Source: Candidatus Omnitrophota bacterium
GTDB taxonomy: Bacteria > Omnitrophota > Gorgyraeia > 2-01-FULL-45-10
NCBI GenBank assembly: GCA_016929115.1
Contig: JAFGJL010000025.1
Location: forward strand, 1 to 51,072
DNA length: 51,072 bases
Direction: 5' to 3'
Part shown: positions 22,467-39,059 of the stretch, one piece after another
Layout: each line of letters begins with the position of its first letter
Position numbering within the stretch: position 1 is the stretch's first letter
The notes under the pieces: generated by a model
The model's database searches: none
Told to the model about the DNA's origin: nothing
What the model saw: only the letters and a program-made list of their open reading frames with translations
Program-made: the position numbers and the translations under genes

Positions 22467-24566
22467 ATGATGAGAAAAGTTATCGGCCTCGCTATCATAT
22501 TATCGTTTGTCGCGGCACCATCCGTATCCTTTGCCAAAGAAGAGGGGGGATCGTCCGCGGTCAATCTGGGGACCATTTTGGTATCGGAGGAAGAGCGGTC
22601 ATGGGGGACCCAGGATGTCCGTACCATCGACAGCGGCGAGATCGACAGGACCAGGGAGTCCAGGACAGCGGACGGCCTGCTTGGGAACATAGCCGGAATA
22701 GATCTTAAAAGGACGTCTTACGGCGGCAATACCGGGAGCGAGGTTATCCTGCGCGGATTTGACGAGTCGCGCTACCTGGTGCTGCTGGACGGCAGGCCCC
22801 TGAACGGCGCAGGCGTGTACGGCGGCAACTATGTTGACTGGGCCTCGCTTTCAACAGAAGATATCGAGCGCGTGGAGATAGTGCGGGGGACCGAGTCGGT
22901 GGAATACGGAAACACCCTTGGAGGAACGATAAACATCATTACGAAGAAGAGCACGGGTAAGACGAAGATAGATATTCGTTCTTCATACGGGTCCTATAAT
23001 ACCGTGGATGCCGCGGTTTCCCAGAGCGGCCGCCTCGGCGAAATGTTTTACGAAAACCTTTCATACGGCTACTGGAGGACCGACGGGTATTTAAGGAATA
23101 ATCATAATAACCGCAATAATTTCGCCGGCAGGTTGAATATAGCCTTGCCGGGCGGTATCAACGCGGGCGTCGGGGCGCGGTATACGGTCCAGGAGAGAGG
23201 ATTTATCGTTGAAAACTATGAAGGGGCCGCTTATTACAACAACGCGTATCCTGAGTCGCGCGAGGATAGCGGCGGAGGGCCTTATCCGCAATGGTGGGGC
23301 AAGCCCGGCCCGTTCGGCCCCGTCAGGCCTAAAATGTATTGGGGCGACGGAAGCTACTGGAAGGACAGAAGAGGGCAATATGATCTTACGCTGGAAAAAA
23401 CATCCGGCTCTTTGGATATCAAAGCCCACGCGTACATGAACAAAGAAGAGAGGAAGGAGTATTATTACGCGATCGATAACAGCAGCAAACTTGTTTTGAT
23501 GCGTTATTCCGAACCGGAAGATTCGTTGGGATGGTTCGTGAAGGCGGTGCAAACCGCCGGCAAACATACTATAAGGTATGGGTTCGAAGGCAAATATCTT
23601 GGGTACGGGGGCCAGGAGATCCCATACGCTGACAGGAGTTATTTCAGGGTCCAACCCGCTCCGTCAGACGGCGCGCCGGACGCAAGCCGGCTCAATTCCG
23701 CCTTCGCGCAGGGGACATGGTTTATCTCGCCTTCCCTGGACCTGAATGTCGGTTTGCGTTATGACCACTATCTTTCCAAACAACCCTCCGAGATCGAAAG
23801 ACAGGGCTTAAGCCCGAAAATAGGGCTTGTCTACCGGTTGTGGAAAGATATAAAATTGGAAGCCGATCTCGGGCAGGCGTACAGGTTCCCCACATGTCCC
23901 GAGTCCTATTGGTATTTTGCCGGCTACCAGCCTCCGGACAGGAAGAGCCTCTTGCCCGAGAGGGCTATACAGGGTGAGATCGGCCTATCCAAGGAATTCG
24001 CGGATAAAGGAAAGATCGGCGCTCGGGGGTACTATTATTATGTGTATGACTATATACGGACGATATTCGGGTACAGGCCCTCAAGAGTGGTATATAATAT
24101 CGATACGGTAATGTTATCCGGTATGGAGGTCGAGGGGGAGTATTCTATAATTAAAGATCTTACAGTCTTTGCAAATTATACGTATCAGACCACAACGAAG
24201 GACGGTGATGTGCTGGATAAGAGCTCGGCTTTGTCGGACAACCTTACCGAGCTGCCCGAGAACAAGGTGAACGCGGGATTGCGGCATCTATACCGCGGCC
24301 TTACGACGGAATTCGTGATGAGATATGTCGATAAGCGGCAGGAGCTTACGGGAAGCGCGCTGGGCCCCGACGCATCAAGCCTTTCAGCCCTGGCAAAGTT
24401 CGCGACGTTCGATCTGAATTTTACATATAAGATGCTGGACCGGAAAAATTGCACAGGTACCGTAGAATTCAAGATTGGGAATCTGTTCGACGCGAGGTAT
24501 GAAGAGACGAGCGGCTTTCCCATGCCGGGCAGGACGGTCACGGGAGGGGTGAATGTGCGCTTCTGA
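22467..24566 (+). CDS. TonB-dependent outer-membrane receptor (probable nickel uptake)
   Basis: A 699-aa receptor: signal peptide (about 1-23, ending SVSFAK), a TonB-box-like segment near LGTILVSEEE, a plug domain (TADGLLGNIAGIDLKR, RGFDESRYLVLLDGRPLNG, VEIVRGTESVEYG) and a 22-strand-type barrel that ends in the usual terminal aromatic (VNVRF). It follows nikR and a candidate NikR operator and precedes a FecB/FecCD/FepC-like importer. It would therefore carry nickel or a nickel chelate across the outer membrane using TonB energy; TonB-ExbBD are not in the window. Cobalamin or siderophore as ligand cannot be excluded. Confidence 0.88.
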   Translation: MMRKVIGLAIILSFVAAPSVSFAKEEGGSSAVNLGTILVSEEERSWGTQDVRTIDSGEIDRTRESRTADGLLGNIAGIDLKRTSYGGNTGSEVILRGFDESRYLVLLDGRPLNGAGVYGGNYVDWASLSTEDIERVEIVRGTESVEYGNTLGGTINIITKKSTGKTKIDIRSSYGSYNTVDAAVSQSGRLGEMFYENLSYGYWRTDGYLRNNHNNRNNFAGRLNIALPGGINAGVGARYTVQERGFIVENYEGAAYYNNAYPESREDSGGGPYPQWWGKPGPFGPVRPKMYWGDGSYWKDRRGQYDLTLEKTSGSLDIKAHAYMNKEERKEYYYAIDNSSKLVLMRYSEPEDSLGWFVKAVQTAGKHTIRYGFEGKYLGYGGQEIPYADRSYFRVQPAPSDGAPDASRLNSAFAQGTWFISPSLDLNVGLRYDHYLSKQPSEIERQGLSPKIGLVYRLWKDIKLEADLGQAYRFPTCPESYWYFAGYQPPDRKSLLPERAIQGEIGLSKEFADKGKIGARGYYYYVYDYIRTIFGYRPSRVVYNIDTVMLSGMEVEGEYSIIKDLTVFANYTYQTTTKDGDVLDKSSALSDNLTELPENKVNAGLRHLYRGLTTEFVMRYVDKRQELTGSALGPDASSLSALAKFATFDLNFTYKMLDRKNCTGTVEFKIGNLFDARYEETSGFPMPGRTVTGGVNVRF

Positions 24567-24573
24567 TGCTTTT

Positions 24574-25056
24574 ATGAAGATAACGCTATCCCCGGTAGGT
24601 TTTGTGAAAAATAGTTTTAATGAACGCCCTCCGGAGCCGGGCAGGATCCGGAAAGAACCGTCTAAGATAGTGGTCTTTCCCAGGTATGCGGACGGGCTTT
24701 ACCGTATACGCGAACATAAACACCTTGAGGTCATCTTCTATTTTCACAGATCGAAAGGGTATATGCTTAAGTGCAAGACGCCACACTGGGGTGTCCGAGG
24801 CGTATTTGCCTCGCGCAGTCCGTATAGGCCCGCTCCTCTCGGCCTTATGAAGGTTGAGCTGATATCCGTCAGGGGAAACGAGCTTATTGTCAAAGGGCTG
24901 GACGCGCTTAACGGCACGCCGGTCGTGGATATAAAACCGTATGTGGCCCGGTGGGGATCGAAAAGGGGGAAAGGGTATAATGGAAAAGGGAAAAGACCCG
25001 AGGGAAGGGATCAAGGGTTTATTGGCAAAAGGCGGCCTGAAAAAGCTTCTCGTTAA
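24574..25056 (+). CDS. TrmO/YaeB-family (UPF0066) protein
   Basis: ATG 24574 gives KITLSPVGFVKNSF, the usual opening of the family; ATG 24553 in the same frame would overlap the receptor gene. FHRSKGYMLKCKTPHWGVRGVFASRSPYRPAPLGL holds the SPxRPxPIGL motif of TrmO, the SAM-dependent tRNA t6A37 methyltransferase; VDIKPYV ends the domain. Residues after about 130 are a basic tail encoded in the 77-bp overlap with the next gene. Its place between a TonB receptor and FmdE in a NikR-linked operon is unexpected for a tRNA enzyme; a different SAM-dependent job is possible (inference). Confidence 0.82.
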   Translation: MKITLSPVGFVKNSFNERPPEPGRIRKEPSKIVVFPRYADGLYRIREHKHLEVIFYFHRSKGYMLKCKTPHWGVRGVFASRSPYRPAPLGLMKVELISVRGNELIVKGLDALNGTPVVDIKPYVARWGSKRGKGYNGKGKRPEGRDQGFIGKRRPEKASR

Positions 25057-25693
25057 AGCGGGGGAGATACACGGCCATTATTGTTCCCATGTGGCGCTCG
25101 GGGTCATGGCTACCTATTTCGCTTTTAAGAAACTGGGGATAACCGACAGCACGGGCATGGAGGAGATCCTGGCGGTCGTCGAGTGCAACAACTGTTTTGT
25201 CGACGGCATACAGGCTGTCAGCGGCTGCACTTTTGGAAATAACGCCCTGATATATAAAGATCTCGGCAAGACAGCGGTGACGTTCATCGACCGCAAGACG
25301 AAAAGGGCGGTGCGACTGGCGGCGAAATATACCGGCGAAGATGCGACGAACGATCCGGAAGCGGAGGAGGCAAGGTCGTTATTCGATAAAGCGGTCAAGA
25401 GGAGAGAGAAGCTTGCGCCACGGCAGATGGAACGCATGAAAGAGCTTTGGACGAAGATGTCCTTCGCGTCGCTTTCGAGGCCCGAGAGCGAGTTATTCGA
25501 TATAAACTTCCCGGAACCGGAGGTTATTGCCTACGCTCCGATATTTGATTCGATAAAATGTTCGGTTTGCGGTGAGAGCGCGATGGAGACGCGCGTACGG
25601 ATGAAAGAAAACAGTCCCGTCTGTATCCCTTGCGCCGGTGACGAATATTGGATGGTCGCCGGCAGGGGCATACACCCCGCAGGAAAGAAATAG
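24980..25693 (+). CDS. FmdE-family protein with C-terminal zinc ribbon
   Basis: ATG 24980 is chosen because the N-terminal domain begins soon after; the frame is open to 24941 without family-like sequence. The 237-aa product has the FmdE motif EIHGHYCSHVALGVMA (His31, His33, Cys35), VECNNCFVDGIQAVSGCTFGNN, and a C-terminal CxxC...CxxC ribbon (CSVCGES, CIPC). FmdE proteins were named for a formylmethanofuran dehydrogenase gene cluster but are widespread in anaerobes next to metal transport genes. Metal binding through His/Cys is likely; in this operon the metal is probably nickel. It overlaps the TrmO-like gene by 77 bases. Confidence 0.85.
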   Translation: MEKGKDPREGIKGLLAKGGLKKLLVKAGEIHGHYCSHVALGVMATYFAFKKLGITDSTGMEEILAVVECNNCFVDGIQAVSGCTFGNNALIYKDLGKTAVTFIDRKTKRAVRLAAKYTGEDATNDPEAEEARSLFDKAVKRREKLAPRQMERMKELWTKMSFASLSRPESELFDINFPEPEVIAYAPIFDSIKCSVCGESAMETRVRMKENSPVCIPCAGDEYWMVAGRGIHPAGKK

Positions 25694-25697
25694 GGGC

Positions 25698-26801
25698 ATG
25701 GGAACAAAAAATATCTTTAGAGCTTTATTTGTGACGCTGTTCACGGCGCTTTCGTGCTGTCAAAACGGCGCTATGTCGTCAGAAGATGCCATGCCGGTCA
25801 CCGATATGGCCGGAAGATCGGTAGAGGTCCCGCGGGCGGTCAACAGGATAGTTTGCGCGGGGCCGGGGACGCTGAGGCTTATCACATATCTGGAGGCAAC
25901 GGACAGGGTCGTGGCGATCGAATCCGGGTTCGAAAAAGACAGCCCGGCCGGCAGGCCCTACAGGATAGCGCATCCGGAATTGGCCGGGCTTCCGGGGATC
26001 GGCCAGGCGTCGCCTTCCCCCCAGCCTGATCCCGAGGCGCTGCTTACCGTCAAGCCGGATGTCATATTTATTTCGTACGTTGAAGGGCGCATAGCGGATA
26101 ACCTGCAAGGGAAGACAGGCATCCCCGTAGTAGTTTTAAGTTACGGCGACCTGGCGGCGTTCAATAACGGACACGTATTCGATTCATTAAGGCTGGCGGG
26201 CAGGATCCTCGATAAGAACGGCAGGGCAGAAGCGGTGATACGCTTCATCAAGGATTGCGAAAAAGACCTGCGAGTCAGAGCGGAAAAGATCCCGGACGAC
26301 AGAAGGCCGAGAGTGTATGTCGGCGGGCTCGGCTTCAAAGGAACCCGCGGGATAACCAGCACCGAATACTCGTATCCGGCGTTTGAGCTTCTGCGCGCCA
26401 GGAATGTCGTGTCCGAACCCGGTAAAAAGGGCCATATATTCATCGACAGGGAGAAGATACTCGAGTGGGATCCCGATATCATCTTTATAGACGGAGGGGG
26501 CATGGACATTGTAAGGGATGACCGTAAAAAAGACCCCGAGTTCTATGATCTCCTTACCGCGGTCCGGAATGGGAACGTGTACGGGCTATTTCCGTATAAC
26601 TATTATACCACTAACATCGATACTGCCCTGGCGGACGCCTATTTTATCGGTAAGATCATCTATCCTGAATGCTTTGAGGACATAATCCCGGAGAAAAAAG
26701 CGGATGAGATCTACTCCTTTCTTGTAGGTAAACCCGTCTATGATACGATGAAGAGCGATTGGGACGCTTTTACAAGGATGCGTTTTAATGAAAGAAGATA
26801 G
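25698..26801 (+). CDS. FecB/BtuF-like ABC transporter binding protein
   Basis: ATG 25698 follows the FmdE stop by four bases; the 367-aa product starts with a short hydrophobic segment ending ALSCCQNG, so Cys20 or Cys21 could be a lipid anchor although the lipobox is not ideal. The mature part is a periplasmic-binding protein of the TroA/FecB class: VTDMAGRSVEVPRAVNRIVC, LGIGQ-type loop (LPGIGQASPSPQPDPEAL), KPDVIFI, and a C-terminal DIIFIDGGG. It delivers a metal chelate, cobalamin or siderophore to the permease downstream. Given NikR upstream, a nickel complex is the best guess. The end overlaps the permease gene by 14 bases. Confidence 0.85.
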   Translation: MGTKNIFRALFVTLFTALSCCQNGAMSSEDAMPVTDMAGRSVEVPRAVNRIVCAGPGTLRLITYLEATDRVVAIESGFEKDSPAGRPYRIAHPELAGLPGIGQASPSPQPDPEALLTVKPDVIFISYVEGRIADNLQGKTGIPVVVLSYGDLAAFNNGHVFDSLRLAGRILDKNGRAEAVIRFIKDCEKDLRVRAEKIPDDRRPRVYVGGLGFKGTRGITSTEYSYPAFELLRARNVVSEPGKKGHIFIDREKILEWDPDIIFIDGGGMDIVRDDRKKDPEFYDLLTAVRNGNVYGLFPYNYYTTNIDTALADAYFIGKIIYPECFEDIIPEKKADEIYSFLVGKPVYDTMKSDWDAFTRMRFNERR

Positions 26802-27867
26802 AGCGGAGCATAATAGCGAGGCTGTCCGGCAATACGCCCGCTACAAGCGCAGGAAAGTATTGGTCGGTTTATTTCTTCTGGCCGCGCTCTTCGCGGTCGC
26901 CGTGTACTCCGTGTGCGCCGGGTCTGTGCGCCTGAGCATAGGCCAGATCGTCGATGCGCTGTTTCGGCACGGCGACAGGATGCACGAAGTGATCATCTGG
27001 AATATACGCCTTCCCAGAGTCTTGGCGGCGATCATCGCCGGGATGGGCTTGGCCGTGGCGGGCTGTGTCATGCAATGCGTTTTGCGCAATCCTCTCGCGT
27101 CACCTTTCACGATGGGTATTTCGCAAGGCGCGGGATTCGGAGCGGCCTTCGCGATCATAGTCCTGGGGGCGGGGGCCGCGCAGAGCGCGGGCCTAGCCGC
27201 GATCCTTAACAATCCCTATGCGGTGGTGTTATTCGCGTTTGCAGGTTCCCTGATCGGTATAGTCACGATCCTGGCGCTGGCAAAATTCGCGCGATTGTCC
27301 GCTCAGGCGATGGTCCTGGCGGGTATCGCGATGGGCACGCTCTTTAGCGCTGCCACGATGCTCCTGCAGTATTTTGCCGAGGACATAAAAGTCGCTTCGG
27401 TCGTATTCTGGACCTTTGGCGACATGGGAAGAGCAGGAAAAACGGATGTGTTGATCATGTTCCTGATAACCGTTCCCGCGCTTGTTTATTTCATGCTCAG
27501 CAGGTGGGAATACAATGTGCTGGAAGGCGGGGAAGAGACCGCGAAAGCGCTGGGGGTGAATACCGAAAGGCTGAGGCTCGTCGGGGTGCTGCTGGCCTCC
27601 CTTATAACGTCCGTATCCGTCGCGTTCCTGGGCATCATCGGGTTCATCGGGCTGGTTGCTCCTCATATGGTGAGAAGGATCGTCGGAGGAGATCACAGGT
27701 ATCTGATACCTATATCCGCGATCTTCGGCAGCTTGCTTTTATTGGGCGCCGATACGATATCCAGGACGATAATGCCGCCAGCCGTATTACCCGTCGGTAT
27801 ATTGACGTCTTTCATGGGCGTTCCGTTATTTATGTATCTGATATGGAAGAAAAGAAAACAGTACTAG
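26788..27867 (+). CDS. FecCD-family ABC transporter permease
   Basis: A 359-aa permease with about nine to ten hydrophobic segments. RLPRVLAAIIAGMGLAVAG and QCVLRNPLASPFTMGISQGAGFGA are the conserved FecCD start; ALGVNTERLRLVGVLLASL and GFIGLVAPHMVRRIVG are the coupling region that meets the ATPase. The ATG lies 14 bases inside the binding protein gene. It forms the homodimeric membrane channel for the chelate importer. Confidence 0.93.
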   Translation: MKEDRAEHNSEAVRQYARYKRRKVLVGLFLLAALFAVAVYSVCAGSVRLSIGQIVDALFRHGDRMHEVIIWNIRLPRVLAAIIAGMGLAVAGCVMQCVLRNPLASPFTMGISQGAGFGAAFAIIVLGAGAAQSAGLAAILNNPYAVVLFAFAGSLIGIVTILALAKFARLSAQAMVLAGIAMGTLFSAATMLLQYFAEDIKVASVVFWTFGDMGRAGKTDVLIMFLITVPALVYFMLSRWEYNVLEGGEETAKALGVNTERLRLVGVLLASLITSVSVAFLGIIGFIGLVAPHMVRRIVGGDHRYLIPISAIFGSLLLLGADTISRTIMPPAVLPVGILTSFMGVPLFMYLIWKKRKQY

Positions 27868-27902
27868 CGCATACATCAGGGCGCGCGTAAGAGGCGTAAA
27901 AA

Positions 27903-28670
27903 ATGGACCTTACATTGCGGGGCGTGGAGTTCGCGTATCCGAGCGTTCCTGTCTTGAAGGGCGTATCCTTTGAGCTGAACGGCGGAGAAATGCTGGCCGT
28001 GGTCGGGAAGAACGGTTCGGGTAAGTCCACGCTTATAAAATGCATAAACAGGATACTGAAATACCGCAGCGGCAACATATCCGTGCAGAGGGAAGAAGTG
28101 AAAAATATGGGAAGGAGGGAGATCGCCGGAAAGATGGCGTATCATCCCCAAAAAACTTCCTACAATTTTCCCGTTACCGTATTCGATACGGTCCTTATGG
28201 GGCGGTATCCTCACTCGGATTGGAGCGGTGATAAGGAAGGCGAGCAGCGCGTCTGGGAAGTCTTAAGGCTCTTGAACCTCGAAGGGCTTGCCCTGCGGGA
28301 TTATAACGAGATCAGCGGGGGACAGCAGCAGAAGGTTGTTATAGCCAGGGCCCTTGCCCAGGAAGCGAAGATACTCCTTCTCGATGAGCCCACAAGCGAT
28401 CTTGATATACGGTATCAGCTTGAGGTGATGGAAATAATAAGAAGACTGGTCAAAGAGAGCGGCATTTCAGCTATAGTAGCCATCCATGACCTGAATTTAG
28501 CGTCGAGATACTGCGACCGGATAGTCATGTTGTACAACGGCGTAATATTCAGCGCCGGGACTCCCCGTGAAGTATTTACCCCCGAAAACATCGCCAGCGT
28601 TTACGGCGTGGACGCTTCGGTGCGTGAACATGAGGGCACCGTCCATATCATCCCCAAGAGGCCTATTTAA
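27903..28670 (+). CDS. FepC/BtuD-like ABC transporter ATPase
   Basis: A 255-aa ATPase: Walker A GKNGSGKS at 35-42, the Q-loop in YHPQKTSYNFPVTVF, signature ISGGQQQKVV near 138, Walker B ILLLDEPTSDLD and an H-loop in IHDLNLASRYC. The last 30 residues (TPENIASVYGVDASV) are typical of iron-chelate/cobalamin importers. It ends the predicted NikR-linked operon; the next gene begins 143 bases later behind a separate promoter-like sequence. Confidence 0.93.
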   Translation: MDLTLRGVEFAYPSVPVLKGVSFELNGGEMLAVVGKNGSGKSTLIKCINRILKYRSGNISVQREEVKNMGRREIAGKMAYHPQKTSYNFPVTVFDTVLMGRYPHSDWSGDKEGEQRVWEVLRLLNLEGLALRDYNEISGGQQQKVVIARALAQEAKILLLDEPTSDLDIRYQLEVMEIIRRLVKESGISAIVAIHDLNLASRYCDRIVMLYNGVIFSAGTPREVFTPENIASVYGVDASVREHEGTVHIIPKRPI

Positions 28671-28812: not shown

Positions 28813-31047
28813 ATGAGAAGAATACTGCTGCTCATCCTTCCGATACTTATCATCATCACGGCCGTGCTGACCGTTTTTGGGGTCCTCCAGGTGCGTTTCG
28901 AGCAGGATAAGCTGGTGGATGACCTGAAGAGGAAGGCGCGGGCTGTCGCCGAGAGCATGGAATTTTCTGTAAGGCATATCTTATCGGAAAACGATACGCG
29001 CAGCGCCGCGCGGCTTGCGGAGAGGTTCCAGAGAAGGGAGCGCCTTCAGGGCTGCGCCATCTATGACAAGGAAGGCAGCATCTTCGCCATCACGGAGCGG
29101 TTTTCCGACTGGAAGGACAAGGATAAGCCGTACCTGAAGGATATCCTCGCCAATAAGACGCCGCGCGGGGCGGTCGAAAAGTTCAAGGACTACGCCGTCT
29201 ACAGCTACATTATCCCCATCATGGACGACGAGGGGAATGTCATCGGCCTGGCCGAGATCATTTATGATACTTCCTATGTCTTCAAGCAATTGACCGAACT
29301 CTGGCAAAGGCTCAGCATAGCGCTCATAATCCTCGTAGTCCTCATCATCGCCATTGCCCTGTTCGTGCAGTGGCGGTTCTTTGTCGCGCCTGTCGACCGC
29401 CTTACCGAATGGTTCAAGCGTTTTCAGAAAGGCGAGACGGACGATAAGCACCCCATAACAGAGAAGGGTGAGCTGGGCAAGCTCGCGAGCGAGGTCGAGC
29501 AGGTGGCCCTTGGCCTCCGGGTCGCGCGAAAGGCGGCGAGTGAAGAGGCATCGCTGCGCATCCAGAGGGAAGACCTCTGGACAGAGGCAAAGCTCAAGGA
29601 CCTTGTCCGCGCGAAACTGGGCGAGAACGCGCTCGTCGTCGTCTCCAACAGGGAGCCGTATATGCACGTCCTGGACGAGGCGCTCGGCACGGTAAAGTGC
29701 GTCCGCCCGGCAAGCGGCGTTGTCACCGCGCTAGACCCCATCATGCGCGCCTGCGGCGGCATCTGGGTCGCCCACGGCAGCGGCAATGCCGACAGGAAGG
29801 TCGTCAATTCCAAGAACAAGCTGGGTGTCCCGCCCGAGGATAACAGGTATATAATGAAAAGAGTCTGGTTGTCCAAGGAGGAAGAGAACGGCTACTACTA
29901 CGGGTTCTCGAACGAGGGATTGTGGCCGCTATGCCATATCACTCACACAAGGCCCATATTCAGGGAGTCGGACTGGCAGATGTATAAAAAAGTGAACCAG
30001 AAGTTCGCTGACAGCATAGTGGAGGAGCTGCCGGCAAAGGAGCCCTTTGTCTTCATACAGGATTACCACTTTACGCTCCTGCCGCGCATGATAAAGGAAA
30101 AGAGGCCCGATGCGACGATAGCGCTCTTCTGGCATATCCCCTGGCCGAACCCCGAGGTCTTCTCCATATGCCCTTACCAGCAGCTTATCCTGGACGGCAT
30201 GTTGGGATGCGACCTGATCGGTTTTCATGTCCAGTACCATTGCAATAATTTTCTCGATACGGCGAACCGGCTCCTGGAATGCCGCGTGGACACCGAGAAG
30301 TTCAGCATCGTGCGTTTCGGAAAAGAGACATTTATCAGGTCGTTCCCGATAAGCGTGGATTTCGGCATAGAGAACGCAGACAGGCAAAAAGAGCGTAAGG
30401 CCATGGACAGGATACGCAGGGAGTATGAGCTCGACGGCAAGATAATCGCCCTGGGTGTTGACAGGATCGATTATACCAAGGGGATCGCCGAGCGTATCAT
30501 GGCCGTAGACAGGTTCCTCGAGAAATATCCCGAATACAGGAACAAATTCGTTTTCATCCAGCTGGGGGCGCCGAGCCGGACCCACATAAAACGCTATCAT
30601 GACCTGATGGCGGAGATAGACGAGCTTGTGGAGAAGGTGAATTGGAAATACATGGAGGGGGAGTGGAAGCCCATCATATACGTTAAGAGGCATCTCTCGC
30701 CCGAAGACATAAAGCCTTTCTACAAGATGGCCGATACCTGTATCGTGAGCTCGCTCCATGACGGCATGAACCTGGTGGCCAAGGAGTACGTCAGCGCGAA
30801 GAACGACCTTAACGGCAGCCTCATATTGAGCCGTTTCACCGGCGCGGCCAGGGAATTGACCGATGCCGTGCAGATAAATCCTTATGCCATAGAGGAATTC
30901 GCGGAAAGCATAAAATACGCCTTGGAGATGCCGCCCGAAGAGAGAGCAAGGCGCATGGAGAACATGCGCAAGTCCGTCGCCGAGAACAACATCTACCGCT
31001 GGGCCGGCGCCATGATCACGGAGCTTACGGCATTGAAGAAGGCGTAG
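28813..31047 (+). CDS. otsA: Membrane sensor-HAMP-trehalose-6-phosphate synthase fusion
   Basis: A 744-aa protein, far longer than the usual 450-500 aa OtsA. Residues 4-24 are a membrane span, 25-166 an extracytoplasmic sensor-like domain (CAIYDKEGSIFAITERF, IIPIMDDEGNVIGLAEI), 167-188 a second span and about 189-240 a HAMP-like linker (VAPVDRLTEWFKRFQKGE, LASEVEQVALGL). The GT20 domain fills 272 to about 740: VVVSNREPYMH, GGIWVAHGSGN, FWHIPWPNPEVF, GVDRIDYTKGI, LHDGMNLVAKEY. It makes trehalose-6-phosphate from UDP-glucose and glucose-6-phosphate at the membrane, probably under control of an external signal (inference from architecture). otsB follows 22 bases later. Confidence 0.9.
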   Translation: MRRILLLILPILIIITAVLTVFGVLQVRFEQDKLVDDLKRKARAVAESMEFSVRHILSENDTRSAARLAERFQRRERLQGCAIYDKEGSIFAITERFSDWKDKDKPYLKDILANKTPRGAVEKFKDYAVYSYIIPIMDDEGNVIGLAEIIYDTSYVFKQLTELWQRLSIALIILVVLIIAIALFVQWRFFVAPVDRLTEWFKRFQKGETDDKHPITEKGELGKLASEVEQVALGLRVARKAASEEASLRIQREDLWTEAKLKDLVRAKLGENALVVVSNREPYMHVLDEALGTVKCVRPASGVVTALDPIMRACGGIWVAHGSGNADRKVVNSKNKLGVPPEDNRYIMKRVWLSKEEENGYYYGFSNEGLWPLCHITHTRPIFRESDWQMYKKVNQKFADSIVEELPAKEPFVFIQDYHFTLLPRMIKEKRPDATIALFWHIPWPNPEVFSICPYQQLILDGMLGCDLIGFHVQYHCNNFLDTANRLLECRVDTEKFSIVRFGKETFIRSFPISVDFGIENADRQKERKAMDRIRREYELDGKIIALGVDRIDYTKGIAERIMAVDRFLEKYPEYRNKFVFIQLGAPSRTHIKRYHDLMAEIDELVEKVNWKYMEGEWKPIIYVKRHLSPEDIKPFYKMADTCIVSSLHDGMNLVAKEYVSAKNDLNGSLILSRFTGAARELTDAVQINPYAIEEFAESIKYALEMPPEERARRMENMRKSVAENNIYRWAGAMITELTALKKA

Positions 31048-31069: not shown

Positions 31070-31864
31070 ATGAAATACCTGTTCGACAGCTGGAAGGATG
31101 TGAAGAGAGGCCTTGAGAACAAGCGGATATTCGTCTTCCTTGATTATGACGGCACGCTGACGCCTATAGCGAAGACCCCCTCGAAGGCCTTTATCTCCCC
31201 GGAGGCACGCAGCCTGTTGAAGCGGTTGCTGAAAAACGGAGCATGCAAGATCGCGGTAATAAGCGGCAGGGGATTGGGTGACATCAAAAAGATGGTCGGT
31301 GTAAGCGGCATTATCTATGTCGGAAATCACGGCCTCGAGATAGAGGGGCCCAAGCTGAGATTTAAAAGCCCTTTATCGCCCGGTTTCTTAAAAATATTGG
31401 AGAAGATAGGCCGTGAGCTGCGCGAGGCCCTCTCGGCGATCAAAGGCGCCATCGTGGAGCATAAGGGGTTGACGCTAAGCGTCCATTACCGGATGGCGGA
31501 CAAAAAGGACGCGTTGGCCGTGAAGAATTTTTTCTATGAGGTGATGGAACCCTATATCGTTAAAAACGAGGCGCACGTCACTTTCGGCAAGAAGGTCTTT
31601 GAGGTGAGGCCGCCCATGCGCTGGGATAAAGGCAAGGCGGTCATGTGGCTTTTGGCAAGGCAGCGTTTCGCCAAGAGAGATGCCGTAAAGGCCGTCTATA
31701 TAGGAGATGACGTTACGGACGAGGACGCTTTCAGGGTATTGCGGGACAAGGGCCTGACGATAGTCGTGGGAAGGCCGCTTCTCTCTTGCGCGCAATATTA
31801 CCTTAATAACCCGGGAGAAGTGGCGTCGTTCCTTAAAAAGATCGTTTTATTATGTAAAGAGTAA
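31070..31864 (+). CDS. otsB: Trehalose-6-phosphate phosphatase OtsB
   Basis: A 264-aa HAD-superfamily phosphatase. Motif I is FLDYDGTLTPI with nucleophile Asp25 and general acid Asp27, motif II AVISGRGLGDI, the lysine of motif III in RWDKGKAVMWLL and motif IV IGDDVTDEDAF. The cap domain has the T6P-specific VGNHGLEIEGP and SVHYRM. It converts trehalose-6-phosphate to trehalose. It sits directly after the OtsA fusion and four bases before the DUF5752 gene. Confidence 0.93.
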   Translation: MKYLFDSWKDVKRGLENKRIFVFLDYDGTLTPIAKTPSKAFISPEARSLLKRLLKNGACKIAVISGRGLGDIKKMVGVSGIIYVGNHGLEIEGPKLRFKSPLSPGFLKILEKIGRELREALSAIKGAIVEHKGLTLSVHYRMADKKDALAVKNFFYEVMEPYIVKNEAHVTFGKKVFEVRPPMRWDKGKAVMWLLARQRFAKRDAVKAVYIGDDVTDEDAFRVLRDKGLTIVVGRPLLSCAQYYLNNPGEVASFLKKIVLLCKE

Positions 31865-31867
31865 AGT

Positions 31868-32536
31868 ATGGAAAACCTGGTAAAAGCAAAAGAGCCCTTC
31901 CTTTTCTATACGCGGGTCCATCTTTCCGAATTGACCGGGCTTAAGGCCTCGAACCTGGAGCAGTTGCTGGAGATATTAAAGACGGCTCCGGGCGCGTCCA
32001 TCTATCACCATACCCACCGGTTCCTGCAGCAGCACCAGTATCTTTCGCCGGAGCCGCCCAATGATTTCGCTTATTGGGTCACAAATGTGCTGGGTGAGAT
32101 AGAACTGGGCGAGCGCCTGGCAAGCATAGATACCGTGGAGTTCATTTCCGTACGCGACCTGCGCGACAAGATAATCCAGATCATAGAGCAATATGTGGAG
32201 GAGGTCCCTTCAGCCGCGCTCAGGTTCGCGAGGAAGAACGAAGAGTTCTATTTCATAAAATCGGTCAGTTTCGTCCTTCCCACAAATTACGTGGCGCGCG
32301 ACCTGGCGGAATTTGCCGGTATCCTGGGAAAGATAACGCTGGACTCGATCTATTTCCATATGTTCGAGGCGCGGCTGCGCCTCGAGAAGAAGACGAACGA
32401 CTTTTCGCTGTGGATCGAGGACTCGCTCGATAATAAGGAGCTGGCCCGCAGGATCGCGCGGCTCGACCCTTATACCCATACTCTCGATGACTTGCGCAAA
32501 AAACTGATCGGATTGGTGTCGGCATGCCTAAAATAG
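31868..32536 (+). CDS. DUF5752 family protein
   Basis: A 222-aa soluble, mainly helical protein. Features such as FLFYTRVHLSELTGL, SIYHHTHRFLQQHQYL, FAYWVTNVLGEIELGERLA and the repeat-like second half (SIYFHMFEARLRLEKKTNDF followed by RIARLDPYTHTLDDL) match what I recall of DUF5752. The two halves share the pattern IYxHxxxxRL...NDF..W, suggesting an internal duplication. Function is unknown; it is typically found beside trehalose/glycosyltransferase genes, as here. Its end overlaps the TreT-like gene by 13 bases. Confidence 0.75.
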   Translation: MENLVKAKEPFLFYTRVHLSELTGLKASNLEQLLEILKTAPGASIYHHTHRFLQQHQYLSPEPPNDFAYWVTNVLGEIELGERLASIDTVEFISVRDLRDKIIQIIEQYVEEVPSAALRFARKNEEFYFIKSVSFVLPTNYVARDLAEFAGILGKITLDSIYFHMFEARLRLEKKTNDFSLWIEDSLDNKELARRIARLDPYTHTLDDLRKKLIGLVSACLK

Positions 32537-33735
32537 ACGAATATATACCCATAGTCGGCCAGGCGGTCATAGACGACCTGAAGCTCATTGCCGACAGGCT
32601 GAAGGGCAAACTGATGCAGCATGTTAACTCTACCGCCATGGGCGGCGGAGTCGCCGAGATACTTAACCGCATGCTTCCCCTGTTCAACGAGCTCGGCATC
32701 AACACGCGATGGGACGTCATAAAAGGCGGCGCGCAGTTTTTCGAGGTGACGAAAAAATTCCATAACGCGCTGCACGGCAAGAGAGTCGATTTTACCCAGG
32801 GTGATATGGATATGTTCCTGGAGACGGGCCGGAAGAACCTGGAGGAGGTCGAGATCCGGGGCGATGCCGTATTCATCCACGACCCGCAGCCGGTGACGCT
32901 GGTGGAAAAGCGGGGAGACAACAAGTGGGTCTGGCGCTGCCATATCGACATATCGAGCCCGGACAGGGATATCTGGAAATTTCTAAAGGACTTCGTCCTC
33001 CGGTATGACGCTGCTATATTTTCGGCGCCGTCTTTTTCGCAGAACATGTCCATGAGGCAATTTCTGATATCCCCTTCCATAGACCCTTTGAGCGATAAGA
33101 ACAAAGAGCTTCCGGCCGAGCTCATCGATTCGGTCCTGGAAAAATACGGCATAGTCAGGAACAAGCCCATCATCACCCAGATATCCAGGTTCGACCGCTT
33201 GAAAGACCCGCTAGGTGTCCTCGAGGCCTATAAACAGGTGAAGAAGCGTATAGACTGCCAGCTGATCCTCGCCGGCGGCGGCGCGACGGACGACCCCGAG
33301 GGCGTGCAGGTGCTGGAAGAGGTTAAGGAAAGGGCCGGCAAGGACGAGGATATCCATATACTCCTCCTGCCGCAGAACGACATCGAGATCAACGCCCTTC
33401 AGAGGGGATCCGATGTGATCTTGCAGAAATCGCTGAGGGAAGGGTTCGGCCTCACGGTGACCGAGGCATTGTGGAAGGCAAAGCCGGTGGTGGCCTCATG
33501 CGTAGGCGGCATCCCACTGCAGGTAAAGAATAAATTTTCGGGCCTCCTGTGCCATTCCGTAGAAGGCGCCGCGTTCGCCATAAAACAGTTTTTGAACAGC
33601 CCGCAGTACGCTAAAAAAATGGGTGAGAACGGCAGGGAGCATATAAGGAACAATTTCCTGATAACACGCCATCTCAGGGATTACATGCTGGTCTTCATTT
33701 CTTTGCAGCACAACGAAGATATCGTTTATTTATAG
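32524..33735 (+). CDS. treT: TreT-like trehalose synthase (GT4 glycosyltransferase)
   Basis: A 403-aa GT-B fold enzyme. The N-terminal part has HVNSTAMGGGVAEILNRMLPL, the acceptor-site motif of trehalose glycosyltransferring synthases, and HDPQPVTLVE; the C-terminal part has QISRFDRLKDPLGVLEAY, LILAGGGATDDPEG and EGFGLTVTEALWKAKPVV with the E-x7-E donor motif. TreT joins NDP-glucose and glucose directly into trehalose. The cluster would then have two independent trehalose routes (OtsAB and TreT). A trehalose phosphorylase-type activity in the same family is the main alternative. Confidence 0.85.
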   Translation: MPKIDEYIPIVGQAVIDDLKLIADRLKGKLMQHVNSTAMGGGVAEILNRMLPLFNELGINTRWDVIKGGAQFFEVTKKFHNALHGKRVDFTQGDMDMFLETGRKNLEEVEIRGDAVFIHDPQPVTLVEKRGDNKWVWRCHIDISSPDRDIWKFLKDFVLRYDAAIFSAPSFSQNMSMRQFLISPSIDPLSDKNKELPAELIDSVLEKYGIVRNKPIITQISRFDRLKDPLGVLEAYKQVKKRIDCQLILAGGGATDDPEGVQVLEEVKERAGKDEDIHILLLPQNDIEINALQRGSDVILQKSLREGFGLTVTEALWKAKPVVASCVGGIPLQVKNKFSGLLCHSVEGAAFAIKQFLNSPQYAKKMGENGREHIRNNFLITRHLRDYMLVFISLQHNEDIVYL

Positions 33736-37427: not shown

Positions 37428-39059
37428 ATGCGCGCGAAAAAGAGACCTAATATGCGGCGCGAAAATACCGCGATATTGCTCAGAGATGTTATGGATAATA
37501 TCCCTGACATGATCTATGTCAAGGATATCAAGAACCGTTTTGTCCTCTCCAACAAGGCCCACGCCTCGACATTCGGCCTCAAACCGGAACAGTTGGTGGG
37601 TAAAAGCGACCTTGATCTCTTCCCTGAAAGCCTTTCCAGAAAATATTTCGCGGACGACAACCGCCTCCTGAGGACGAAGAGGCCGATCCTGGACAAGATC
37701 ACGGCCGCGCCGAGGCCTGACGGCGGCATCACCTACGTCAGCACGACCAAGGTGCCGCGTTTCGACAAAAAAGGCAGGGTCATCGGCTCGATCGGTATCA
37801 CCCGTAACGTCACCGAGCGCATGACCGCCGAGGAGCAACTGAGGTTTCATAAAGAGCGCCTCGAGAGGCTTTTAAAAGAGCGCGAGCGGCTGAACCGGCG
37901 GCTGCAGCAGCTCGTCCTCAAAGACCCGCAAACAGGGCTCTATAACCACCGGTACTTAAGCGAGGCGATCGAATCGGAGCTCCATAACGCGAAACACTAC
38001 CGCCATGCCCTATCGCTTATACTGATAGACATAGATTACTTTAAATCGATCAATGATGTCTACGGCCATGAGTTCGGAGACCTTGTCCTGAAACAGGTCG
38101 TCGCGTTGATAAAGAAGCTTCTCAACAGGCACGGCACCATGGTCAGGTTTGGCGGCGAGGAGTTTATGGCCCTTTCACCCGGCATGGGCCGGCGAAAATC
38201 CCTGGCGCTTGCCCAGAAGATAGTCGAGGCGGTGAGCCTCAACAAGTTCGGCAATGCCAAGCATAAGGTGAAGCTGAGCGTGAGCGCGGCTGTCGTGGCC
38301 CATCCTGAGGATATCGTGGCCAGGGGCGCTGACATGATAAGCCTGGCAGACAAGGTCCTGGACAGGGCCCAGGATGAAGGGGGGAACAGGGTCTGTTCTT
38401 CGCCGGACCTTAAGAAGAAGAGGCCGCAGATCCCGGAGCTGGGCGGGGGCATAAAGTTCCTGAGGGAGAAGGTCCAGAAGCTCACCAAGCGCGGCAACCA
38501 GAGCCTGATAGAGGCGATCTTCGCTTTCGCGAAAGCGATAGAGATGAAAGACCAGTATACAGGCGATCACGTCGAGAAGACGGTCTACTACGCCACGCAT
38601 ATAGCCAAAGAGCTGGGGCTGCCGAAGAGGGACATGGAGCTCATGAGGCAGGCGGCTATCCTGCACGACCTGGGAAAGGTGGGCATCAGCGATAAGATCC
38701 TTCTTAAAAGGTCGAAACTGACGAAGAAGGAATTCAACGAGATCAAAAAACACCCCCAGATCGGCATAGATATCCTCAGGCCGCTGAAGAACATGCGCGA
38801 TATCATACCGTACATCCTCTACCATCACGAACGTTGGGACGGCAGGGGATATCCGGCCCACCTGAAAGGCGAAGAGATACCGGTCTTGGCGCGCATCATC
38901 GCCATAGCCGACGTCTACCAGGCGCTCACATCGGACAGGCCTTACCGGAAAGCGCTATCAAAGAAGGAAGCGATGGAGATAATAAAGAAAGACTGCGGTT
39001 CCCGCTTCGACCCGAAAGTCGTCAGCGCGTTCCTCAGGGTATTAAAGCGCACCAGATAA
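37428..39059 (+). CDS. PAS-GGDEF-HD-GYP cyclic-di-GMP protein
   Basis: A 543-aa soluble signalling protein. The PAS domain spans about 20-135 (MIYVKDIKNRFVLSNKA, DLDLFPESLSRKY), a coiled coil 140-165, then GGDEF 165-320 with an intact GGEEF site (242-246), and HD-GYP 355-540 with HDLGKVGI (HD at 413-414) and HHERWDGRGYP (GYP 474-476). It has both a diguanylate cyclase and a c-di-GMP phosphodiesterase domain with catalytic residues present. The RxxD inhibitory site before GGEEF is absent. It may be switchable by the PAS domain. It lies 22 bases after the Fe-ADH. Confidence 0.92.
   Translation: MRAKKRPNMRRENTAILLRDVMDNIPDMIYVKDIKNRFVLSNKAHASTFGLKPEQLVGKSDLDLFPESLSRKYFADDNRLLRTKRPILDKITAAPRPDGGITYVSTTKVPRFDKKGRVIGSIGITRNVTERMTAEEQLRFHKERLERLLKERERLNRRLQQLVLKDPQTGLYNHRYLSEAIESELHNAKHYRHALSLILIDIDYFKSINDVYGHEFGDLVLKQVVALIKKLLNRHGTMVRFGGEEFMALSPGMGRRKSLALAQKIVEAVSLNKFGNAKHKVKLSVSAAVVAHPEDIVARGADMISLADKVLDRAQDEGGNRVCSSPDLKKKRPQIPELGGGIKFLREKVQKLTKRGNQSLIEAIFAFAKAIEMKDQYTGDHVEKTVYYATHIAKELGLPKRDMELMRQAAILHDLGKVGISDKILLKRSKLTKKEFNEIKKHPQIGIDILRPLKNMRDIIPYILYHHERWDGRGYPAHLKGEEIPVLARIIAIADVYQALTSDRPYRKALSKKEAMEIIKKDCGSRFDPKVVSAFLRVLKRTR

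Follow-up and report, generated by a model that had tools for sequence, protein, structure and literature searches.

A Cache-HAMP membrane input module joined to a complete GT20 trehalose-6-phosphate synthase in Omnitrophota and other bacteria

The window, by which we mean the whole stretch of 51,072 nucleotides of Candidatus Omnitrophota DNA that was analysed, carries on its + strand an open reading frame of 744 aa with an ATG start (28813..31047), exactly where an earlier sequence-only reading had placed it. The source is a MAG of 1.5 Mb that is 90% complete, and this frame is the sole GT20 gene found there. The gene, its parts and the three genes that follow it are:

28813..31047, + strand: gene for a Cache-HAMP-GT20 trehalose-6-phosphate synthase, 744 aa (ORF, Pfam, hydropathy, AlphaFold, Foldseek)
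28822..28878, + strand: TM1, N-terminal signal anchor, residues 4-22 (hydropathy 3.15; helix 2-58 in the model)
28900..29292, + strand: extracytoplasmic single Cache (PAS-like) domain, residues ~30-160 (WalK 5is1 profile match; Foldseek matches to WalK, DcuS and CitA; sCache_3_2 in relatives)
29311..29367, + strand: TM2, residues 167-185 (hydropathy 3.47; the model helix 154-205 runs on into HAMP AS1)
29374..29547, + strand: HAMP domain and signalling helix, residues 188-245 (Pfam HAMP 188-233; Tsr and AF1503 HAMP PDB chains)
29548..29631, + strand: junction helix, residues 246-273, with a WT..L motif at 256-261 (N-termini of sensorless synthases begin here; 24-residue spacing to N279)
29632..31029, + strand: GT20 trehalose-6-phosphate synthase domain, residues 274-739 (Pfam GT20; OtsA catalytic residues kept)
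31070..31864, + strand: trehalose-6-phosphate phosphatase (HAD; OtsB type; Pfam Trehalose_PPase E 5.4e-49; TIGR00685 169 bits, above cut-off)
31868..32536, + strand: DUF5752 protein (Pfam PF19027 E 4e-70; same place in 48 of 55 loci)
32524..33735, + strand: TreT-type trehalose glycosyltransferring synthase (GT4; Pfam TreT_GT1 E 3.7e-54; NF041139 382 bits, below cut-off)

The encoded protein runs from TM1 through a single Cache domain, TM2, HAMP and a helix into a complete GT20 trehalose-6-phosphate synthase (TPS), a layout that we regard as confirmed. On the window protein alone, the Pfam models dCache_1 (E 4e-5) and dCache_3 (E 1e-4) as well as HAMP (residues 188-233, E 0.0035) score below their curated cut-offs. 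The assignments become firmer through family-wide matches among 65 relatives, where sCache_3_2 is found in 50, dCache_1 in 38 and HAMP in 21 at E<=0.01, with best Cache scores of E 2.4e-8 (sCache_3_2) and E 7.7e-9 (dCache_3). A profile of 15 homologous N-termini (residues 1-271) searched against the PDB retrieved the ectodomain of S. aureus WalK (5is1, E 5e-5) together with the HAMP domains of the chemoreceptor Tsr (E 2e-4) and of AF1503 (E ~0.01), and the NCBIfam model HK_WalK matches window residues 8-245 (E 1.7e-11). A HAMP domain was recognized by an AS1 with a conserved Pro, a connector with a Gly and an AS2 starting near D/G-E-[LI]-G-x-L; in the window protein these are P193, G207 and GELGKL at 219-224.

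An AlphaFold2 model of residues 1-275, computed as a monomer from a 65-sequence alignment, has a mean pLDDT of 83.5 (ectodomain ~90). It begins with a long TM1/ectodomain helix (2-58) and a helix at 62-76, after which come a PAS-like core of five strands (79-152), one unbroken helix for TM2 and HAMP AS1 (154-205), AS2 (220-250) and, last, a short helix at the junction (258-272); the PAS-like ectodomain fills the gap between the two TM segments. The full-length model has the same layout (mean pLDDT 81.6, pTM 0.71). The top Foldseek match is the WalK integrative model (E 6.5e-12), and further matches comprise WalK ectodomain crystals (target TM-score 0.71-0.76) as well as DcuS and CitA (mostly 0.71-0.78). 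The protein resembles the sensor kinases WalK/YycG, DcuS and CitA in the fold of the ectodomain, and its TM1-Cache-TM2-HAMP layout is WalK-like; in contrast to these kinases, it lacks a histidine kinase, a cytoplasmic PAS and any other signalling domain as output, and its output is a sugar-making enzyme. The sequence-only reading had described a sensor input module on a complete GT20 enzyme without a kinase, which is fully supported by profile, fold and Pfam evidence, including Cache, WalK ectodomain and HAMP matches from the kind of N-terminal profile search that it had proposed. The outer domain, which it had put at about 140 residues, measures ~130 (30-160).

In the enzyme half, Pfam GT20 (PF00982) aligns to residues 274-739 over model positions 3-472 of 473 (E 8.5e-127), and the closest solved structures are the mycobacterial TPS 5jij (E 6.6e-89) and other TPS chains. 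We aligned the window enzyme to E. coli OtsA (NC_000913) and checked 14 active-site positions of the OtsA structures, W40 not being mappable in the alignment. All 14 ligand and catalytic residues (R9, G22, Y76, W85, D130, H154, R262, K267, R300, D361, M363, N364, L365 and E369) are identical in the window enzyme and near-invariant in the family; an inactive enzyme was rejected because the active site is intact. The NCBIfam OtsA equivalog TIGR02400 scores 430.5 bits and does not reach its cut-off of 565, and in the GT20 tree the protein lies in the 'SNREPY' branch, well apart from OtsA. Given this score and the divergence of the branch, we do not claim equivalence to OtsA by score; the GT20 membership stands. 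With OtsA and the mycobacterial TPS, the protein shares the complete GT20 fold, all checked active-site residues and a phosphatase gene alongside, whereas the 270-residue Cache-HAMP membrane input module is an addition. The window protein is predicted to make trehalose-6-phosphate, the one support for this product being the adjacent trehalose-6-phosphate phosphatase gene.

In related genomes, a GT20 above cut-off was found in 60 of 97, and the GT20 proteins examined fall into fused two-TM proteins of ~745 aa, sensorless ones of ~490 aa and a few unrelated GT20s. A survey for the same architecture, also suggested from the sequence, returned the two-TM form in dozens of genomes. Strong matches to the N-terminal module (E<=3e-49) occur, by hand count, in ~115 of 384 Omnitrophota genomes. 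In the genome collection relatives are encoded at 93 candidate loci, and record titles and GT20 frames were taken from the best 80 of these. The titles among the matches listed are mostly Candidatus Omnitrophota, and also include Elusimicrobia, Spirochaetes, Nitrospirae, Kiritimatiellae, Syntrophales/Syntrophaceae, Eisenbacteria, Victivallis, Planctomycetes and Armatimonadetes, the loci of the last two being partial matches only. The fusion module is present in MAGs named for at least six phyla besides Omnitrophota, an occurrence that is taken from named loci of the collection and gives no frequency. Two loci titled as non-Omnitrophota (L063, L067) lie very near Omnitrophota sequences in the tree and may be transfers or binning errors. 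A search of the plasmid collection with the N-terminus alone gave no match, and among viral contigs 54 pattern matches included no relatives.

At nearly all loci among the matches listed, GT20 lies in the same frame behind the sensor; in one split case (L083) it lies just downstream in another frame segment. Behind the HAMP domain of the relatives examined, no output domain other than GT20 (kinase, MCP, cyclase, GGDEF or phosphatase) was found. A Cache module that is free-standing or placed on other outputs was rejected, as the relatives with enough sequence carried GT20. That the fused frame is an artefact of assembly or annotation, or its membrane-like N-terminus a product of chance, has a practically negligible likelihood: the genomes are MAGs, and among the relatives a few (L083, L137) are split or truncated, but the ~745-aa frame is found again in independent assemblies from several phyla, supported by profile matches and a conserved fold. 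Dozens of genomes share the layout, which is therefore not due to chance or misassembly; an assembly chimera was rejected since independent genomes carry the same frame. At another locus (L058, G028:C30) a GT20 domain lies within a 7499-aa open frame that also holds a peptide deformylase domain.

Sensorless relatives start at or near M-W-T-K-x-x-L, 12-20 residues before the GT20 core, and in the fused proteins the same W-T-x-x-x-L helix follows directly on the HAMP signalling helix. As the sensorless proteins begin at the junction helix, the sensor has been cleanly added to, or lost from, an enzyme that is complete by itself. In the GT20 tree, 29 rows including the window protein form a fused clade and 24 rows a sensorless one; a second fused clade groups with a one-TM protein from an Aminobacter plasmid, so that two deep GT20 clades hold the full Cache-HAMP unit. 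Homology of their N-termini (27-33% identity) links the two fused clades, and a single ancestral fusion followed by losses would therefore be the simplest reading of the sequences. The Aminobacter plasmid TPS (L059:4782-6599), 49% identical to the window enzyme, has a single N-terminal TM anchor and no Cache domain; its neighbours are GT4 and amylo-alpha-1,6-glucosidase genes. A further TPS (L039, in G043) has TM2-HAMP without Cache and is a possible intermediate of sensor loss. From these relatives with short membrane segments it follows that the enzyme can do without the sensor.

In the window the operon order is TPS, phosphatase, DUF5752 and TreT, with gaps of 22 and 3 bases followed by a 13-base overlap. 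The arrangement is conserved: among loci with enough sequence, DUF5752 is found downstream in 48 of 55 and TreT in 47 of 55. One operon holds two trehalose routes, of the OtsAB type and of the TreT type. DUF5752 is named in no paper found by our literature search and is possibly a partner of TreT or the phosphatase; at one locus (L153) it forms the C-terminal half of a 427-aa protein. A scan for consensus promoters and terminators gave 3 promoter-like sites, no more than in shuffles. Just upstream, positions 22467-28670 of the window encode a TonB receptor, an FmdE-like protein and a BtuF/BtuC/BtuD-like ABC transporter, a metal or cobalamin uptake cluster that probably forms a separate unit, and positions 37428-39059 encode a PAS-GGDEF-HD domain protein.

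Of the 57 testable fused loci, 26 have a gene for an MscS-type channel (Pfam MS_channel, E 3e-16) directly next to the TPS gene and on the same strand, loci of Syntrophaceae and Eisenbacteria among them. With 2 MscS genes among ~1500 genes, we estimate the probability of such adjacency by chance at well under 1%. A different MscS (25-29% identity) abuts the TPS gene at three loci of another class (L146, L147, L150). No MscS gene lies in the window, and the two MscS genes of its genome are on other contigs. Genes for a Na+/H+ antiporter and ClC occur in some loci. The gene neighbourhood points to an osmotic role of the operon. An MscS-type gene also stands beside 12 of 24 sensorless TPS genes, and the osmotic link accordingly belongs to the pathway and not specifically to the sensor. 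The osmolarity theme raised by the sequence-only reading is thus supported for the purpose of the pathway, but not for the cue that is sensed.

The msc-gt-tpsp operon of Thermoproteus tenax encodes a TPSP, a GT and a mechanosensitive channel, for which a role in osmotic stress was proposed and whose order was called unique to Thermoproteales (PMC3634074). At those fused loci where an MscS gene adjoins TPS, the genes for trehalose synthesis and dephosphorylation are likewise grouped with those for a GT4-family enzyme and a mechanosensitive channel, and this comparable gene set is found in Omnitrophota and a few other bacteria despite the stated uniqueness. In contrast to the window protein, the TPSP of T. 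tenax combines TPS and phosphatase in one chain, and its description mentions no Cache-HAMP sensor. The TPS activity of T. tenax TPSP depends on a complex with the operon-encoded GT (PMC3634074); by this precedent, it is plausible that the TPS described here forms a complex with TreT or the phosphatase in addition. The same dependence, together with the conserved TreT and phosphatase genes next to TPS, would also suit a TPS part that is mainly a metabolic sensor of UDP-glucose/glucose-6-phosphate signalling inside-out, or a regulatory subunit activating TreT or the phosphatase. We consider this quite improbable, given that GT20 is the only output domain and that nearly all members retain the checked OtsA catalytic residues, which makes a purely regulatory pseudo-enzyme unlikely.

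The fused proteins keep a fixed geometry between membrane and enzyme. The spacing is 30 residues from TM2 to HAMP (W164-P193), 15 within HAMP AS1 (P193-G207) and 24 from the junction to the enzyme (W256-N279) in 102 of 102 fused proteins, and 33 along AS2 and the signalling helix (L224-W256) in 99 of 102; where the length varies, it does so in the HAMP connector and in segments of the ectodomain. Close relatives make up many of the 102, so that the divergent proteins carry the weight: in those with 23-29% N-terminal identity, most of another class, both TMs and the GT20 start lie at nearly the same residue numbers. That the stretch between TM2 and the enzyme, HAMP included, is nearly free of indels is what would be expected if helix phase carries the signal. 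The module might merely anchor and dimerise the enzyme at the inner membrane, near MscS or partner enzymes, with a Cache domain that no longer senses, and the single anchor of the Aminobacter protein, the TM2-HAMP without Cache in L039 and the frequency of membrane neighbours such as MscS all fit such a role. We nevertheless regard it as unlikely, since 17 of 131 ectodomain positions, R75, E76 and R77 among them, are invariant and the mean pairwise identity of the ectodomain (0.63) exceeds that of TM2 (0.51), since an anchor would not need a TM2-HAMP-junction spacing that is nearly indel-free at 23-33% identity, and since the full Cache-HAMP unit persists in both deep clades. The direct coupling of an outside signal to trehalose synthesis proposed by the sequence-only reading gains from the fixed spacing, the conserved ectodomain and the intact catalytic residues, all of which bear on it indirectly.

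The reading that we prefer and consider fairly likely is that of a one-component transmembrane receptor-enzyme, in which Cache-HAMP gates the GT20 TPS of a pathway for osmotic or envelope stress. The Cache domain outside the cytoplasmic membrane would sense a cue, and its conformational change would pass via TM2, the HAMP four-helix bundle of a homodimer and the junction helix to reach the N-terminal Rossmann half of GT20, where trehalose-6-phosphate synthesis would be raised or lowered. We infer the dimer and the coupling path, the AlphaFold models having been made as monomers. The phosphatase of the neighbouring gene would convert trehalose-6-phosphate to trehalose, which would accumulate under osmotic or envelope stress and probably be released through MscS channels on relief. 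Judged from sequence, an outside signal probably acts directly as the switch for trehalose production, with no relay through signalling proteins of the usual kind. More tentatively, the family could be a widespread class of transmembrane receptors with an enzyme that makes a compatible solute as their direct output: a cue from outside, probably stress of an osmotic kind or of the envelope, would gate trehalose synthesis allosterically through HAMP in one polypeptide, and the operon, which can also hold a solute-releasing mechanosensitive channel, would provide self-contained osmoregulation without kinases or transcription factors.

One-component Cache receptors such as chemoreceptors, adenylate/guanylate cyclases, GGDEF/EAL proteins and PP2C/SpoIIE phosphatases likewise combine an outer sensor and an output in a single protein. 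They differ from the window protein, whose output is a metabolic glycosyltransferase; a 2016 survey of Cache proteins tabulates signalling-domain outputs only, a metabolic glycosyltransferase not being among them (PMC4822843). Full-text searches of the open-licence literature yielded no paper on a TPS fused to a sensor (HAMP, Cache or TM sensor). The parts are known, and the combination is undescribed and well conserved, though domain databases may list the architecture without comment. The sequence-only reading had spoken of a distinct control principle, a fair description as far as the output domain goes; on the input side, the protein has a Cache-HAMP receptor module of standard type.

The outputs that Cache-HAMP modules are known to drive are kinases, chemoreceptors, cyclases and phosphatases. 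In the present proteins an enzyme of central carbohydrate metabolism takes their place, and the geometry of coupling has been preserved across very long evolutionary distances. If the activity is gated from outside, a fast trehalose response to stress could need no gene expression or phosphorelay, and the protein would offer a clean system for how HAMP drives an unrelated enzyme fold as well as a natural chassis for receptor-controlled sugar synthesis. Omnitrophota are mostly uncultured and small-genomed, and the fusion suggests how they handle osmotic change.
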